DNA from: Planctomycetaceae bacterium
GTDB taxonomy: Bacteria > Planctomycetota > Planctomycetia > Planctomycetales > Planctomycetaceae
Reading direction: 5' to 3'
Length of the DNA: 47,686 nucleotides
Assembly (NCBI GenBank): GCA_021732415.1
Contig: JAKFVC010000006.1
Location: 1-47,686 of the forward strand
The notes below the pieces were generated by a model. The model made no database searches, was not told the origin of the DNA, and was given only the letters and a program-made list of their open reading frames with translations. This document shows, piece by piece, positions 13,524-44,048 of this stretch. Positions within the stretch are counted from its first letter, which is position 1, and each line of letters opens with the position of its first letter. A program made the position numbers and the translations under genes.

Positions 13524-14037
13524 CGCACGCCTCAGAATCGAATAACAGGGCCTGCACTCACCACATTCCCTTGGAGGACTCAAGGCACAGAATACGGCGA
13601 TGTACAGATACAGATGGCGGTATCATCTCATGTCGTAGAAGTCAAATCAACACTTAACCGATTTTCCACACCCCTAAAGTGTTTTGCCTCCACAAAAGAC
13701 AAATCATTATGGGGTTGGATCTTCCGAATGGAATCAAGTTTGCACATTCCGTGGGCTCGGATTTGAAGAACGTCAATCGGAGAGGACGGTTTGTTGACGT
13801 TTTGCAACGCGTTTGGGAAGTTCGGGCAGGTGAACGATGGCGCAATAATTTTTTTCATCGCTGACTGCAATCTGATCGAACATTGGTTTCGTGGTGCAAC
13901 TCAGGTATCGTGGGACGGGTCTCCAGGCCCGTCCGGCCCCGTGGCGGACGCTGCTAGCGTCCGTGTCTTGGGCGGACGGACGGGCCTGGAGACCCGTCCC
14001 ACGATACGCGACCCAATCCCCAAACGTCACCGTTACC
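13524..14037. other. divergent intergenic region, kinase / methyltransferase
   Basis: The region separates the minus-strand kinase from the plus-strand methyltransferase. The first 380 bases are AT-richer than their surroundings and must hold the divergent promoters, but I cannot pick out a convincing -35/-10 pair. The last part is filled by the nested repeat element at 13910-14002. Short open frames here read through the repeats and are not supported. Confidence 0.5.
13910..14002. repeat. REP-like inverted pair, family B, with a nested family C copy
   Basis: The left arm starts GTGGGACGGGTCTCCAGGCC and the right arm is its reverse complement ending in GTCCCAC at 14002. Between the arms lies a complete single family C palindrome (13941-13964, GTGGCGGACGCTGCTAGCG). 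So one repeat type sits inside another. It ends 35 bases before the chosen methyltransferase start. Confidence 0.8.
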
Positions 14038-26914: not shown

Positions 26915-27140
26915 GTGGGACGGGTCTCCAGGCCCGTCCGTCCCTTTTACCTTCAGCGCTACAAGGCTCTCAAACCCTGCGAACTTCGCGCAGCTTACGA
27001 GTTGCCAAGTATCTGAGATGAAGCGACACTCGGTCTCTCTCTTGAGCGAGACCAGTTATTCGCTCCGCGAAGATCGCGAGGCATGAATAAGTTTGAAGTC
27101 GAAAAAGACGGGGACGGACCGGCCTGGAGACCCGTCCCAC
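26915..27140. repeat. family B arms, widely spaced inverted pair
   Basis: The left arm (26915-26939) starts GTGGGACGGGTCTCCAGGCC 12 bases past the hydantoinase stop. The inverted arm (27111-27140) ends in GTCCCAC. About 170 bases separate them, far more than in the other pairs, so they may be one stretched element or two single ones. Confidence 0.7.
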
Positions 27141-27388: not shown

Positions 27389-27416
27389 TTGACGATCAGT
27401 AGCCAGCGGGTACAAT
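27389..27416 (+). promoter_or_regulatory. sigma-70-type promoter, probably of dnaG-rpoD
   Basis: TTGACG (27389-27394) and TACAAT (27411-27416) are separated by 16 bases, close to the housekeeping consensus. Transcription would start near 27423, about 280 bases before the dnaG ATG. No other gene follows in this direction before dnaG. The call is by sequence match only. Confidence 0.6.
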
Positions 27417-29728: not shown

Positions 29729-31420
29729 ATGACTTTGCATCGTCTGGATGACCACCTGAAGACTTTGATCGACGCTGGCAAGGAACAGGGATTCCTGACC
29801 TTTACCCAGGTCAACGAATACCTGCCCGATGAGGCTGTCAGCCCTGAGAAGCTTGATCAACTGTTGATGTCGATCGAGGAACTCGGTCTGGAAATCATCA
29901 ACGACGACAAGCTCGCCGAGCGCCTGGCCGCGGAACGTCGCGCCAAGAACGCCAAGGGGATGAAGTCGATCAAGAATGGCCGGATGAAAGAGGCCTCGGG
30001 TGAGGACTCTTCGCGCCGCATCGACGATCCCGTCCGCATGTACCTCACGCAGATGGGTGAGATTCCTCTGCTGACTCGCGTGGAGGAAATTTCGCTCGCC
30101 AAGAAGATCGAAGTGACCAGGAAGCGGTTCCGCCGCCAGTTGCTGGAATCTGATTTCGCTCTCAAGTCGGCGATTGACGTTCTGACCCGCGTCCAAAATG
30201 GCGACCTGCCGTTTGACCGGACGATCAAGGTGTCGATGACCGAAGGTTTGGAAAAGACCCAAGTCCTCGGCCGGATGCCGCACAACCTGAAGACGCTCGA
30301 AGTTCTCTATGAGAAGAACCTCGCCGACTTCCAGCGGGCTCACGATCCCAAGGCCTCAGCGGCCGAACGCCAGCAGGCTGCCACGGCACTCGAATTGCGC
30401 CGCCGCAAAATGGTGACACTGGTGGAAGAATTGAGTCTCCGCACACAACGGCTGCAGCCTGCTCAACGCCGGTTGGAACAGATCTCTCGCCGGATGTGCG
30501 AAATCGAATCGCAACTGGTCCGCCTGAAGGATCTCAAGTCGGCGAAGGACGAACGAGCCAACCTGCAGAAGGAACTCGAAGATCTCCAGAACATGACCCT
30601 GGAGACCCCACAGTCCCTCAAGCAGCGTATGCGATCAGTCCAGGCCCGCTTTGGTGCCTACGAACAATCGATGCGAGAACTGTCGGGTGGCAACCTGCGT
30701 CTGGTGGTGTCCATCGCCAAGAAGTACCGCAACCGTGGCCTGAGCTTCCTCGACCTGATTCAGGAAGGCAACACCGGCCTGATGCGAGCGGTCGACAAGT
30801 ACGAATACCGCCGCGGCTACAAGTTCTCGACCTATGCCACATGGTGGATTCGTCAGGCAATCACCCGCGCCATCGCCGATCAGGCCCGCACGATTCGCAT
30901 CCCCGTGCACATGATCGAAACGATGTCCAAGCTGAGGAAGGTCAGCAAGAAGCTGCTGCAGGAAAACGGCCGCGAGCCCACGATCGAAGAAACGGCCGAA
31001 GCCGCAGGCGTGAGCCTCGAAGAAACCCGCCGCGTCATGAAGATCTCACGGCACCCGATCAGTCTGGATCGTCCGGTCGGTGAGAGCGAAGACAGCTATT
31101 TCGGCGACTTCATTGAAGACGACGACATCGAGAGCCCCGTCAACACGGCGACTCAAGAGATGCTAAAGGACAAGATCGAGCATGTCCTGAAGACCTTGAC
31201 CTACCGCGAACGTGAAATCATCAAGTTGCGTTACGGCCTGGGTGACGGCTACACGTATACGCTCGAAGAAGTCGGCCGCATCTTCAAGGTGACCCGCGAA
31301 CGCGTCCGTCAGATTGAAGCGAAAGCCGTCCGCAAGCTGCAGCACCCTGTCCGAGCCAAACAGCTCAAGGGTTTCCTGGATGGCCTGGCCATTCAGTTGC
31401 AGAATGCTGAGAGCAACTAA
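29729..31420 (+). CDS. rpoD: RNA polymerase primary sigma factor RpoD
   Basis: The 563-residue protein is a group 1 sigma-70 factor. Region 1.1 is at the N-terminus ([20 protein letters not shown]), region 1.2 at [19 protein letters not shown], and a long charged, coiled insertion (about 115-310) precedes region 2 ([59 protein letters not shown]). Region 3 and the region 4 helix-turn-helix ([20 protein letters not shown]) follow. The ATG at 29729 is almost touching the ribosome binding site GGGGAGGA (29721-29728). A TTG at 29735, seven bases from GGAGG, is better spaced and may be the real start; the products differ by two residues. A strong terminator follows. Confidence 0.96.
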
Positions 31421-35062: not shown

Positions 35063-37852
35063 TTAGAAGAAGCCACCGCCACCACCGCCCATGCCGCCCA
35101 TACCACCGCCACCCATTCCACCCATGCCGCCGCCCATTCCACCACCCTGCTGGCCGCCGTTGAACTGACCGCCGCCACCGGTCTGGCCACCCGAACGGCT
35201 ACCGCCCATACCGAACAACGGATTGATCGGCATGACGAGGTCACCGACGTTGTAGACCCGCAGAGGTCGCTTGGCGATCCCGTCGGTCTTGGTCGTGATC
35301 TTCATGACTTCGTTTTCAATCACGTAGGTCAGGTTCTTCGAATCCAGCAACAATTTGAGGGCGTTCTTCAGCGAGATTTCGCTCACCTTCAATGTAATAT
35401 CAGTGGCGTCGGTCGCCACGCTTTCCTCTTCCAGCTTGGTCTTGTCGATGACAATGTCAAAGCCGTGGCGCTCCATGATCGTATCTTTCACGCCATCCAA
35501 GGATTCATCGGTGAAGTCGAACGTCGTCGGCTTATCGAGTTCCCGGACGATCTTTTCTTCCTTCTTGCTGTAGCTCTTCAGATCAACCGATTTCCACTTC
35601 TTGCGGTTCTCGGTGATCCACTGCCAGCGTTCCGGGCTCGGCCACACAATCGGCGGCTCATCGGGGAACGGGACGTGTGACAGTTCGACCTGATACAGCA
35701 ATGCCAGCAATTTGTCCTGGCGTTCGCTGCGCAACCGGCGGGCTTTGTCCAAGTGACCGGCCGCTTCGGAATTGAACACGTCGAGGTTCGGCACACCCAG
35801 GTAGGGATCCAACTCCACAGCCACGCGAGACACCGCTTCGGCGTCTTCGAAGGCTTGCGGGTTCCCCTTGTATCCACGAATCAGCAGGGCTCGAACGCGA
35901 TCGATCAGTTGTTCCATCTTCTCTTCGTCGCGTTGAGTCTGATCCATCAGCTTCTTCATCGCTTCCTGCTGCGACAGTTGGCGATCCAAAGCGGCCCGCT
36001 TTTGCTCGAACGATTCGCTCTCATTCTGCAATTGCTGAATGGCATTTTCGACTCGCTTCCGCAAGGCTTGACGCACATCGGCCGAAATATCAGTCGCCGC
36101 GATGACCGTATCGAGCTGTCGTTTCAAAATGTCGTACGCATCCGGATAACTGTCGCGAGCACCCGCCTGAGCATCCTGGATCGCCACATTCACGTCGATC
36201 GTGATCTGCTCTTCGCGAACCTTGCGGCGGGCTTCCAGATCCTCGAGCAACGAACCCGACTTCGGGTTCGACTTGTCTTCCGTATCATTCAACTGATCGA
36301 CCGCACCGGCGGGCTTCTCTTCGACGCCAGCTTCGGGAGCCGGCTTCTCGTCCCCTGCGGGCTTCTCTGCGGCCGGCTTTTCTTCAGCGGCCGGCTTCTC
36401 CTCAGCCGGATCTTCATTAGCCGCTGGATTCTTTTCGGTCGCTGGTTTTTCTTCCGGTTCGGTCTTCTCGGCAGCCGGCTTTTCTTCGGCTGGTTTTTCT
36501 TCTGCAGCAGGCTTCTCTTCCGGTGCGGCCTTTTCTTCGGGCTCGGGTTTTTCTTCCGCCTGAGCGAGAACGAGTTGCCGCTTGACCGGCTTCGCCTGCA
36601 ACTGCCGCGAGGACTTCAACAGGTCCTTCGCAGCCACATTACCGGGCTCGAGTTCTTCCAGGGTCTTCGCGATTTCCTCGACCCGCTTATTATCCTTCGC
36701 ATTCAACGATTGGATGCCAGCTTGGGTCAACGTGAAGATGTGAGCGTCGAAAGACTCTTGAGCACGCTTCAGCAACTGCCGACCCGCAATCGGCATGACC
36801 AGTCCCTGCGAACTCTCGGCCATATTCCAAGTGGGAGCCAGGAAGCCGGTGGAACCAGTCGCCTCGTCGGCCTTGATTGACCAGGAATACGTCTGGGGCT
36901 GACCGTGCAAAGTTCCGGTCAGTTTGACCTGAACCTGACTGGCGGTCAGATCTTTGCCCAGCAGCACAGTTTCGCGGTCGAAACGGACGGGGGGCAACTT
37001 GATCGGATAGACGTTCGGAATCTCGGGCGTTGTGGCAAGCGACTCGGGATAGAACACGGGAGCAACGGCGGCTCGGGCCAGATCCCGTGCAATGTAGGCC
37101 ACATCGCTGCCATCTTTCTTGAGGTCAGCGACCAGTTGCGGTTCATCGATGACAATGATCCCACCCGTGTGCTGAGCCAGAGTCCCGAGGAGAATCAGGT
37201 CGAGCCGCGGACCAACGGCAAAGCTGTTGACGGGAACGGCAGCCGTCCGCAGATCACCCAGCAACTTGACCATCGCCGGCGATTCGATCAACTTCGCGGT
37301 ACTGAATCCATCGCCGATATACAGAATCGACCGAGTTCGATCGGCGGTCGTGTTCTTCACCGGCGAATTCTTCACGGGCATTGCCATGCGGAGCGAACTC
37401 TCGATGTTCGTCGAGCCGAGCGGCACGCGATCTTCCAATTTCGTGAAGGCCGCCTTGAGTGCCTGCGAATCGGTGGCCACAAAGCCGTCCGTCAAACTGG
37501 TTGACGCCACGTCGGATGCAATCAATTGCACGCGGTCGCCAGCGGGCAAGCTGTTACAGAAGACGTTGGCCAGAAGCAGGGCACGCGAACGATAGATCCC
37601 GCTCTGGCTGGCCGATGTGTCGACGATCAACACATGGTCGTGCGGGACGCTTGCCGACTTGGGTAAAGCCGGAGCCGGCAAGATCAACGCGGAGTACGTC
37701 ACTCCTTGCGGTGCCTCGAACCGCAGTAGACCCGGCACGGGTGCCAGCGCGGCCGATTTGACGGGGGGCGCGGCGAAGAGACTGGAAACTAGAAAACTGC
37801 CACTGACCAGCGCGCCTAGACAGCGCCAGGTTGACGGGGTGAAGGAGCCCAT
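35063..37852 (-). CDS. secreted VWA-domain protein with STN-like domain and Gly/Met-rich tail
   Basis: The protein has 929 residues from the ATG at 37852 (GAGGAAA about ten bases upstream), which opens a signal peptide ending SSLFAAPP; a longer reading adds 58 unsupported residues. A von Willebrand A domain starts near residue 70 with a complete metal site motif DTSAS (D78, S80, S82). A repetitive acidic linker of Glu-Glu-Lys-Pro-Ala units spans about 432-515, followed by a helical, coiled-coil region to about 770. A segment at about 777-850 (FDFTDESLDGVKDTIMERHG, then SEISLKNALKLLLDSKNLTY) resembles the STN (secretin/TonB N-terminal) fold. The last 50 residues are almost only Gly, Met and Gln. 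It probably acts at the cell surface; function is not known. Confidence 0.88.
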   Translation of the reverse strand: MGSFTPSTWRCLGALVSGSFLVSSLFAAPPVKSAALAPVPGLLRFEAPQGVTYSALILPAPALPKSASVPHDHVLIVDTSASQSGIYRSRALLLANVFCNSLPAGDRVQLIASDVASTSLTDGFVATDSQALKAAFTKLEDRVPLGSTNIESSLRMAMPVKNSPVKNTTADRTRSILYIGDGFSTAKLIESPAMVKLLGDLRTAAVPVNSFAVGPRLDLILLGTLAQHTGGIIVIDEPQLVADLKKDGSDVAYIARDLARAAVAPVFYPESLATTPEIPNVYPIKLPPVRFDRETVLLGKDLTASQVQVKLTGTLHGQPQTYSWSIKADEATGSTGFLAPTWNMAESSQGLVMPIAGRQLLKRAQESFDAHIFTLTQAGIQSLNAKDNKRVEEIAKTLEELEPGNVAAKDLLKSSRQLQAKPVKRQLVLAQAEEKPEPEEKAAPEEKPAAEEKPAEEKPAAEKTEPEEKPATEKNPAANEDPAEEKPAAEEKPAAEKPAGDEKPAPEAGVEEKPAGAVDQLNDTEDKSNPKSGSLLEDLEARRKVREEQITIDVNVAIQDAQAGARDSYPDAYDILKRQLDTVIAATDISADVRQALRKRVENAIQQLQNESESFEQKRAALDRQLSQQEAMKKLMDQTQRDEEKMEQLIDRVRALLIRGYKGNPQAFEDAEAVSRVAVELDPYLGVPNLDVFNSEAAGHLDKARRLRSERQDKLLALLYQVELSHVPFPDEPPIVWPSPERWQWITENRKKWKSVDLKSYSKKEEKIVRELDKPTTFDFTDESLDGVKDTIMERHGFDIVIDKTKLEEESVATDATDITLKVSEISLKNALKLLLDSKNLTYVIENEVMKITTKTDGIAKRPLRVYNVGDLVMPINPLFGMGGSRSGGQTGGGGQFNGGQQGGGMGGGMGGMGGGGMGGMGGGGGGFF

Positions 37853-38777
37853 AGTCTCGGATTTCCTCAGTTTGAGGGAGCCAAAGGTTGGACAAGTCAG
37901 ATGTGGATGATGTCCGAGCGGGCCAATTGCAACGGCGCAAGAAGCGAGTTGAAACATGTGGGTATCTGACAACCAACAGCGAGGATACCACTGACATCCA
38001 GTCGCCGGAAGGAAAAAGTGCCTCAATTCTGAGAGATTTTTCTCGGAAGGGGTGAGTGTGGCACATTTATATCGAAAAGGTAAAACCGCGGGCTGGGGGG
38101 CACCGCGAAATCAGTCCGAGAAGGTCGAAATATGCGGGCTTTTCCGTCGATTCGGACTTTTTCGCCAATGATTCTCGTACCGAGAAATCGCGGTACAAAC
38201 ACGCGAAATCGGCGTCCCGCAGATCAACCAATCGGAGTCGAATTCCACGTATGGATTCGTGCCGCGTCTATTCATGTATTTCGTGTGATTCGCGGTTAAG
38301 AACTTCCCCGGTAGAAGGGCCACGAACCAGAAGAGAGAACTGGTGTGACGAGAGGCTGGCCTCGGGCTTTCACGGACGCACCTCAACCCGCAGAGGAGCA
38401 CAAGAAACCGCAGAGGAGCACAAGAATCATCCGTCACCACGAACACGATGACCTCGTGGGGATGCGAGAACGGTGAACGAATCTCGACAAACCCTGTCCG
38501 GGCAATTCCCACCAAGCGAGGGGGGACGCGATGCACCCGACGATGATCAATGCGTAGAGACGCGATCGATTGAAATTTCAGAGGCCGTCACCAAGGCAGC
38601 CAGAACTCTCGGTGAATTCTGCTGCAAGAGCCTTCACACCGGAGCCCACAGGGGCGGCAGAATCGACTGTCTCGCCCCCACTTGCGCAGTCCTGCTTTGC
38701 GAATCGCTGTGGTCGCCCCCGGCGATTGCACAGCTAGATCGACCCGACACTTAATTCATTATGAATCAACACCGGAA
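37853..38777. other. 925-base region without a supported gene
   Basis: The region is upstream of the VWA gene. It contains GTACCG/CGGTAC and GAGA/TCTC type small hairpins, a single ACCACGAAT-type repeat copy (38278-38297), and a tandem duplication of a 20-base unit around CCGCAGAGGAGCACAAGA (38386-38426). A plus-strand frame from GTG 38473 (93 codons) has no ribosome binding site or recognisable content. The mixture of simple repeats suggests degraded intergenic sequence. Confidence 0.5.
38386..38426. repeat. two tandem copies of a 20-base unit
   Basis: CCGCAGAGGAGCACAAGA occurs twice in a row. It resembles the CGCAGAG-type simple repeats seen in several bacterial phyla. Confidence 0.8.
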
Positions 38778-39023
38778 CTAGAAAGCCATCCAGCCGGGAA
38801 CTTGTTGGAACAGACCGCTCAACGTTTCCCAGTTCTTGGATTCCCCGGATTGGAAGGCATAACCGCGATCACCCCGATCTCCGTGTGAATTCACGAAGTC
38901 GTGAATGACGATATTCACGGTAGAACGCACATAACGCGTCCCGTTCCACTCCAACAACACGGCCTTGGCAGTTCCAGCGGGAATCAAATCCTCAAGCAAC
39001 TCGAAACAACGAATTCCGTTCAT
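38778..39023 (-). CDS. small conserved-looking protein of unknown function
   Basis: This 81-residue gene is too small to recognise but has unusually good expression signals. AAGGAGAG (39029-39036) lies five bases before the ATG, and a near-consensus promoter is at 39092-39120. The product is soluble, with no signal peptide or membrane segment; it has a beta-like core (AVLLEWNGTRYVRSTVNIVI), then SHGDRGDRGYAFQSGESKNW and a C-terminal aromatic tail. Three aromatic and Gly-rich turns suggest a compact fold. Flanking sequence is non-coding on both sides for 400 bases or more, so it is an independent transcription unit. Function cannot be stated. Confidence 0.78.
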   Translation of the reverse strand: MNGIRCFELLEDLIPAGTAKAVLLEWNGTRYVRSTVNIVIHDFVNSHGDRGDRGYAFQSGESKNWETLSGLFQQVPGWMAF

Positions 39024-39028
39024 TGCAT

Positions 39029-39036
39029 CTCTCCTT
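39029..39036 (-). promoter_or_regulatory. strong ribosome binding site of the 81-residue gene
   Basis: AAGGAGAG on the minus strand, five bases before ATG at 39023. It is among the best Shine-Dalgarno matches in the window and fixes the start. Confidence 0.85.
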
Positions 39037-39060
39037 AATACTTACGACTTTGTAACGCCA

Positions 39061-39077
39061 GCCGAGTACTTATCGGC
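39061..39077 (-). promoter_or_regulatory. leader hairpin of the 81-residue gene
   Basis: GCCGA and TCGGC pair around a seven-base loop within the roughly 62-base leader between the promoter and the ribosome binding site. It may stabilise the mRNA 5' end; that is inference. Confidence 0.5.
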
Positions 39078-39091
39078 TCCGAGCTGACTGA

Positions 39092-39120
39092 ATATTACAA
39101 TTTCTTAAGCATCAAGTCAA
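39092..39120 (-). promoter_or_regulatory. sigma-70-type promoter of the 81-residue gene
   Basis: On the minus strand TTGACT (39115-39120) and TAATAT (39092-39097) are separated by 17 bases, a near-consensus housekeeping promoter. Transcription would start near 39085. Confidence 0.78.
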
Positions 39121-39461
39121 GACACGACAGTCATTGTCTCTGCCGTTACACGCCGCCTGTGGCAGGCTGTGGCGATGAGAATCTCGGGATTTCCCAAGGG
39201 ATATCGCGCCTTTCGGCAAAAGCCGCCGGACAATCTTCGCAGATTATTCTTCAGATGCGGACAACAAGACACAATCTCACGGCGAGAAACCTTACGATTT
39301 CATAAGGTGGAGCTTGCGGTCACAAAACGGTGAACAGAACACGGACTCCAGTTTTCTGGGTCCTTTCTGTCTCGTCCGTGCTTTAAGTCCTTCCCTGAAA
39401 TGGACATAAGGGACCCAACGGACAGCAAGGACAAAATTTGGGCAGTATCGCGAACGCCGGC

Positions 39462-43436: not shown

Positions 43437-44048
43437 CGGTGTCAACGTGTCGTGGGACGGGTCTCCAGGCCCGTCCGTCTGATTCGTACCGCCCTAGAAA
43501 GGCCCGATAAAAGGACTGCTGCTCTCGCCTAGATCATCCTTTTTTGCACTTGATATTCTGCGGATTGACGGACGGGCCTGGAGACCCGTCCCACGACACC
43601 GGTGCCCTAAATGCGCGCGGTGTGATTGTTTCTTGAGCAGCAAGACAAATAAAACTCTGCAAAGGCGATCCAGACGGGCTTTGCAGACCGTGGTAATTCC
43701 CAATCAAAACGTCAAAATCAAAACTGAATGCCTATTGGCACGGCAGTTGTTGTACGGTCTGGCATCTGACTGCGAAACCGGGTCGAAAATCCGGATTTCG
43801 CCCGTCGCAAGGCAGAATTTGAGTTTGTCCTGCCCGAACGAACTCAAAACTGGCTTTGGCTGATCGAGATGTGTTGTCGTTGGTGACCTCAACATGTGGG
43901 CCCTTTCGCGGGGTGCTCGGACAGTGATTTTCCCACCTGACTCGGGGCGCTCAGAGTTTCCGGCTGCCAATTCCACGAAGCCCGCAGGATGGTTAGCAAA
44001 CCTTCCTCCGAGTTGCGTAGGACGACGCGCGCCGTAGTGACTGGAATC
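43437..44048. other. intergenic region upstream of glgC
   Basis: The region holds a family B inverted pair (43452-43594) directly after the SMP-30 gene and then about 450 bases without a supported gene. Short frames here read through the repeat or lack a ribosome binding site. The glgC promoter must lie here but I cannot identify it. Confidence 0.5.
43452..43594. repeat. REP-like inverted pair, family B
   Basis: GTGGGACGGGTCTCCAGGCC starts 15 bases past the SMP-30 stop; the inverted arm ends in GTCCCAC at 43594. About 90 bases lie between the arms. Confidence 0.82.

Follow-up and report, generated by a model that had tools for sequence, protein, structure and literature searches.

A small gene of 81 codons in a Planctomycetaceae genome of 9.87 Mb probably belongs to a regulon for inorganic-carbon (bicarbonate/CO2) uptake of Schlesneria-like planctomycetes, in which it would act as an accessory. 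The gene lies on contig C53, the whole of which (47,686 nucleotides) is called the window here. Three copies of a 16-bp palindrome, mTTACGAwwTCGTAAk, stand within 283 bp upstream of the gene and had been overlooked in the original prediction. The palindrome is shared with genes for bicarbonate transporters and carbonic anhydrases, and paralogues of the small gene are linked to a permease gene. Based on these comparisons of sequences, we regard the membership of the gene in the regulon as well supported; more tentatively, we infer what the small protein does and which regulator acts on it.

The original prediction singled out an 81-residue reading frame with a promoter, a ribosome binding site and a leader hairpin, and each of these could be located (Table 1), the promoter as TTGACT-17-TAATAT at 39120-39092 and the ribosome binding site with its GGAG at a distance of 7 nt from the ATG. 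The low dN beside a substantial dS in the comparison with the relative L030 (dN/dS of about 0.04) indicates purifying selection and hence a real protein gene. The description of the gene as having no operon neighbours was also right: the nearest open reading frames on the same strand are 751 bp downstream and 438 bp upstream, gaps which support a single-gene transcript. Its expression signals are not the best in the window, as had been claimed. The promoter scores 9/12, no better than chance when the window is scanned against shuffles (12 promoter-like sites listed, with one site counted at two spacings in two cases, against an expectation of about 16), and a promoter-like TTGACG-16-TACAAT on the plus strand at 27389-27416 scores 10/12. 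The hairpin is present, and its fold is no stronger than those of shuffled sequences; a riboswitch or special leader hairpin was considered and rejected, the window being without any match in Rfam. The promoter owes its credibility to conservation, as 36 consecutive bases over the -35, the spacer and the -10 are identical in L030, in an aligned region which is 74.7% identical overall. This is stronger evidence than the promoter score or the hairpin, which prove little on their own. The gene had also been called strongly expressed. With an operator copy on the -10 and a further one in the leader, the layout of the region makes a switched gene more likely than a strongly expressed one.

Table 1. 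Features of the 81-codon gene and of its upstream region, in window coordinates
Feature	Position	Strand	Basis
CDS of the 81-aa protein	38778..39023	-	open reading frame; homologues; dN 0.021 / dS 0.59 against L030
Ribosome binding site AAGGAGAG	39029..39036	-	sequence; AAGGAGA retained in L030
Operator O3	39041..39056		leader, just 5' of the ribosome binding site; exact TTAC-N6-GTAA; 16.3 bits; conserved in L030
Leader hairpin AGCCGA-N7-TCGGCT	39060..39078	-	6-bp; fold z -0.16, within chance
-10 TAATAT	39092..39097	-	sequence
Operator O2	39094..39109		overlaps the -10 and the spacer; 20.3 bits, the best of the window; conserved in L030
-35 TTGACT	39115..39120	-	sequence
Operator O1	39291..39306		268-283 bp upstream of the ATG; 19.1 bits; conserved in L005 at 919

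Two other features of the window are recorded here for their own sake. Three pairs of inverted 17-bp repeats, GGACGGGTCTCCAGGCC, lie at 13913-13999, 26918-27137 and 43455-43591 and enclose about 90-220 bp; 0.01 copies are expected by chance, the repeat is also found in L047 and L049 of the same genome, and the pairs look like a small dispersed repeat element. The neighbouring open reading frame of 987 aa (35063-38026, minus strand) is single in the window, and two adjacent related ones (862 and 990 aa) are found in the genus-mate G072 (L030:2036-7794).

The homologue search suggested with the original prediction did find relatives. The closest in named records are from the metagenome-assembled genomes Planctomycetaceae bacterium RYN_439 (95% identical protein) and Schlesneria sp. 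RYN_441 (72%). An alignment of 15 family members has 13 invariant columns, and a profile search made with it gave matches in 9 of 150 sampled genomes of the taxonomic family, one of them (G008) weak and partial; in a phylum-wide sample of 392 genomes, the window's own was the only one to match. Six of the eight genomes found with a single-sequence search carry two copies. A tree of the 15 proteins places the five copies that follow a SulP gene together in one clade (B, support 0.92). The other ten, which include the window gene and two pairs of near-duplicates (window/L030 and L006/L032), are called clade A here, a type which is not established as one clade. The clade-B copy of the own genome (C1:119187-119429) is 53% identical to the window protein. 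In the partial G008 match, two strong operators at G008:C670 about 30155-30280 (L096, L042) abut the C-terminal third of the small gene, and the N-terminal part is without family match, as if lost, so that we read it as a decayed copy. The attention asked for this gene was therefore deserved: the small gene is genuine and conserved, stands by itself and belongs to an unnamed family.

The protein was said to have no recognisable function. This stands insofar as the 81-aa protein has no Pfam, PHROGs or NCBIfam family match at E ≤ 10, but the shared operator and the paralogues behind SulP genes suggest inorganic-carbon uptake. AlphaFold models were built from three sequences and are weak (pLDDT 55.5 and 65.8); at this low confidence, both are all-beta, with no helix-turn-helix and indeed no helix at all, and we take the protein to be soluble and probably beta-rich. 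Structure matches of the models were uninformative (best Foldseek E 0.96, VIA Z ≤ 3.4), and we neither claim nor exclude a fold on their basis. The best PDB sequence match is a phage nozzle protein, at E 0.14. A resemblance of the small protein to planctomycete phage-tail domains, and with it the reading as a phage structural protein, found no support: the window protein has no PHROG match at E ≤ 10, the best among family members is 0.03, and no relative turned up in viral contigs or in phage or plasmid records (best phage tblastn E 0.4).

The claim of operators at the window gene was examined with a matrix made from eight sites at transporter and carbonic-anhydrase genes, a test which is not wholly independent, as these sites were chosen for matching a motif first seen at clade-A genes. 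With this matrix, which gave the bits listed in Table 1, operators O2, O1 and O3 came out, in this order, as the top three sites of the window, the fourth scoring 12.1 bits. A broader matrix without the window's sites gave the same top three, and O1, roughly 200 bp before the likely transcription start, was left out of training in every matrix scan. Controls for the broader matrix, namely 30 column-permuted matrices and 12 dinucleotide shuffles, yielded at most one site each at a threshold of at least 14 bits, against 3 in the window. A loose 8-base pattern with one mismatch was not significant over the whole window (5 found against 3.4 expected), and it is the 16-bp matrix, together with the clustering of the copies, which carries the claim at the window.

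In the relatives, the inverted repeat TTAC-N6-GTAA is common to the upstream regions of the small genes. Within 160 bp upstream of clade-A genes it is exact in 6 of 10 and present with at most one mismatch in 8 of 10, against 0.56% and 1.8% of 5000 random background windows of 160 bp, and it precedes none of the five clade-B genes within the same distance. When gap lengths from 0 to 12 were compared, six was clearly the best. Loci of SulP and canonical sbtA genes, fetched by protein similarity and not by the motif, carry the operator within 300 bp upstream in 3/8 cases exactly and in 5/8 with at most one mismatch, compared with 2/147 and 8/147 for the other open reading frames of the same loci (Fisher 9e-4 and 9e-5, p-values which flatter the result because the genomes are related). 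A start later than that of the longest open reading frame was taken for SulP in L036, and the longest one in L065. Of the two exact background cases, one is a site which in L036 also serves as that of the divergent SulP, and the other is the exact site about 450 bp upstream of sbtA in L065. The operator also precedes sbtA in the own genome. It was absent before the clade-A genes in L035 and L041, SulP in L039 and sbtA in L073, as well as before dabA in the own genome and before a second Sbt_1 type.

Genome-wide counts give a more restrained picture. A scan of ten genomes with the pattern TTACRNNNYCGTAAG returned 24 rows (23 distinct sites, 7 of them already known), with no enrichment over the reversed control, which gave 36. 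In the own genome, TTACNNNNNCGTAAG occurs at 8 sites, against 20 for the reversed control, and only the window's and that of sbtA among the 8 fit the regulon; TTACGANNTCGTAA occurs at one place which adjoins no recognised carbon gene, and a strict double-operator pattern had no match. Five of the 16 newly found sites in the ten genomes adjoin SulP, beta-carbonic anhydrase or a decayed small gene, and the other 11 adjoin no recognised carbon gene. The five are before SulP in L082 (by tblastn and frame reading) and L086 (by Pfam), before an ArsR gene followed by a beta-carbonic anhydrase in L091 (Pfam), before another beta-carbonic anhydrase in L099 (by tblastn similarity and frame reading), and beside the decayed small gene in L096. 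Over 17 loci (235 kb), a matrix that included the window sites found 17 sites of at least 12.5 bits, of which 16 fall at loci of the small gene, of SulP or of sbtA or at the G008 remnant; training sites make up most of these 16, and the informative part is the single other site and the untrained G008 pair. The operator is in this way shared with bicarbonate-transporter and carbonic-anhydrase genes, as expected of a common regulon.

The neighbourhoods of the paralogues point in the same direction. Clade-B genes lie about 50-107 bp behind a SulP-type permease gene on the same strand in all five loci, that of the own genome included. The permease was identified by Pfam PF00916 in the three loci tested (L029, L036 and L040) and by tblastn similarity in L038, where the contig ends inside it, and in L039. 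A response regulator and a histidine kinase adjoin the locus in 4 of 5 (Pfam tested for L029 only), DabA (PF10070, Pfam) is found in two of the five clusters (L029 and L040), and a bestrophin in one (L039). Among clade-A genes, that of L033 has DabA about 3 kb away, and that of G093, the only one adjacent to sbtA and P-II, stands in the order sbtA, P-II-type gene, two operators, clade-A gene, all on one strand. Linkage to a transporter, as expected for an inorganic-carbon regulon, is thus found at the level of the family, through clade B in all loci and clade A in G093.

Taken together, a DNA-binding regulator would recognise the palindrome and, when bound on the -10 and in the leader, would keep the small gene off; the layout is repressor-like because of where O2 and O3 lie. 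Shortage of bicarbonate would presumably release the small gene together with the SulP permeases, SbtA and beta-carbonic anhydrase, and the small protein would then most likely act on, or with, a SulP- or SbtA-type bicarbonate transporter. That it acts with a transporter is suggested by the paralogues encoded behind SulP; that it directly contacts a bicarbonate transporter is a tentative proposal, which we consider possible and somewhat less than an even bet. Its role is in any case deduced from the company it keeps, namely the SulP linkage and a circumstantial likeness to SbtB.

As for the regulator, we regard it as almost an even matter whether an ArsR-family repressor, as in the ArsR-carbonic anhydrase operon of G030, or a LysR-type regulator (CmpR/CbbR or NhaR-like) is to be sought. 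In G030, the distance from the operator to the arsR-type gene behind it is about 40 bp, and further ArsR genes are found next to the own clade-B locus and next to an Sbt_1 gene in G148; however, a site before the regulator's own gene was seen in G030 only, and the ArsR genes of the own genome have none directly upstream. The ArsR-family candidate of G030 has no cysteines. With respect to LysR, the palindrome reads TTA-N8-TAA and, as regards the site itself, agrees with the CmpR consensus TTA-N7/8-TAA given in the available text of PMC13249358, and an open reading frame with a LysR-type helix-turn-helix is divergent to the clade-A gene in L035 (L035:9502-10044), but it is only 180 aa long and that clade-A gene is without operator. 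A BlaI/MecI operator was rejected, as none of the four blaI genes of the own genome has TTAC-N6-GTAA directly upstream. In L047 (G000:C174), two palindromes resembling TTACG-N8-CGTAA precede a blaI gene, with a spacing different from that of the carbon operator.

A rather unlikely alternative is that the small gene is co-regulated with carbon uptake and its product acts elsewhere, for example with a metabolic enzyme, the linkage of clade B then reflecting co-expression only. Most clade-A genes lie alone, away from transporters, the window gene among them, and the transporter contact is itself a deduced one, which would fit this view. The constant position of clade B behind SulP and the gene order in G093 speak against it, and we keep a role at the transporter as the preferred reading.

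It seems less likely still that the regulon is concerned not with carbon supply but with the general balance of anions, sodium or pH (through SulP, SbtA and Na+/H+ exchange), the small protein then assisting a permease whose substrate is sulfate or another anion. The substrates of SulP permeases include other anions as well, and the SulP here reaches 141 bits with the BicA model, far below its 880-bit cut-off. Furthermore, the cluster in L039 includes a gene with a PAPS-reductase domain, and an operator in G062 is near a Na+/H+ exchanger gene, beside it rather than clearly in front. Nevertheless, the operator stands before carbonic anhydrase in two genomes and before SbtA in the own genome, DabA is present in two clade-B clusters, and in cyanobacteria, bicarbonate uptake driven by Na+ likewise goes together with Na+ export, according to the available text of PMC13249358. 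Finally, self-control, in which the small protein would be the regulator that binds the palindrome, is very improbable: its own promoter has the most copies seen, but the genus-mate G030 (97% complete), to which L091 and L086 belong, has operators before SulP and before ArsR-carbonic anhydrase with no small gene found, so that the operator is independent of the small protein, and the low-confidence models offer no helix-turn-helix.

The preferred reading, an accessory of carbon uptake, has parallels in known systems. The cyanobacterial low-CO2 regulons of NdhR/CcmR and CmpR likewise have one operator for SbtA, SulP/BicA-type permeases and other inorganic-carbon genes, and the TTA-N8-TAA form of the palindrome is in keeping with them, as far as the available text goes. 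Here, in contrast, the phylum is another one, the regulator is a matter of candidates (in one genome, it is an ArsR gene which carries the site), and the regulon includes a small protein without a name. The transporter and enzyme families are those of the "DIC toolkit" of SulP, SbtA, DabA and carbonic anhydrase (available text of PMC10880623), in the main text of which the terms ArsR, planctomyc, SbtB and small protein are absent. SbtB, an interaction partner of SbtA, BicA and CmpC that plugs SbtA (available text of PMC13249358), offers the closest comparison: the window protein would also be a small soluble protein, encoded and co-regulated with bicarbonate transporters. Unlike SbtB, it has no P-II domain (PF00543) match in Pfam at E ≤ 10, nor has any of the 15 family members at E ≤ 1, and the separate P-II-type gene beside sbtA in G093 indicates that the small protein is additional to P-II. 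We would venture, as a rather unlikely extension of the preferred reading, that the family is a new class of small proteins for transporter control, with no sequence relation to P-II/SbtB, which would gate or stabilise SulP- and SbtA-type bicarbonate transporters within an undescribed inorganic-carbon regulon with its own palindromic operator. Among the full-text literature matches listed (most subscription papers lie outside their scope), no title or abstract start describes this regulon, and control of CO2 or bicarbonate supply in planctomycetes appears in no title or abstract.

In conclusion, bacteria require CO2 or bicarbonate for growth, non-autotrophs included (available text of PMC8567241), and with the operator sequence, the target genes listed here and a candidate partner among the transporters, the control of carbon supply in planctomycetes becomes directly testable. 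An unnamed protein family thereby gains its first functional hypothesis.
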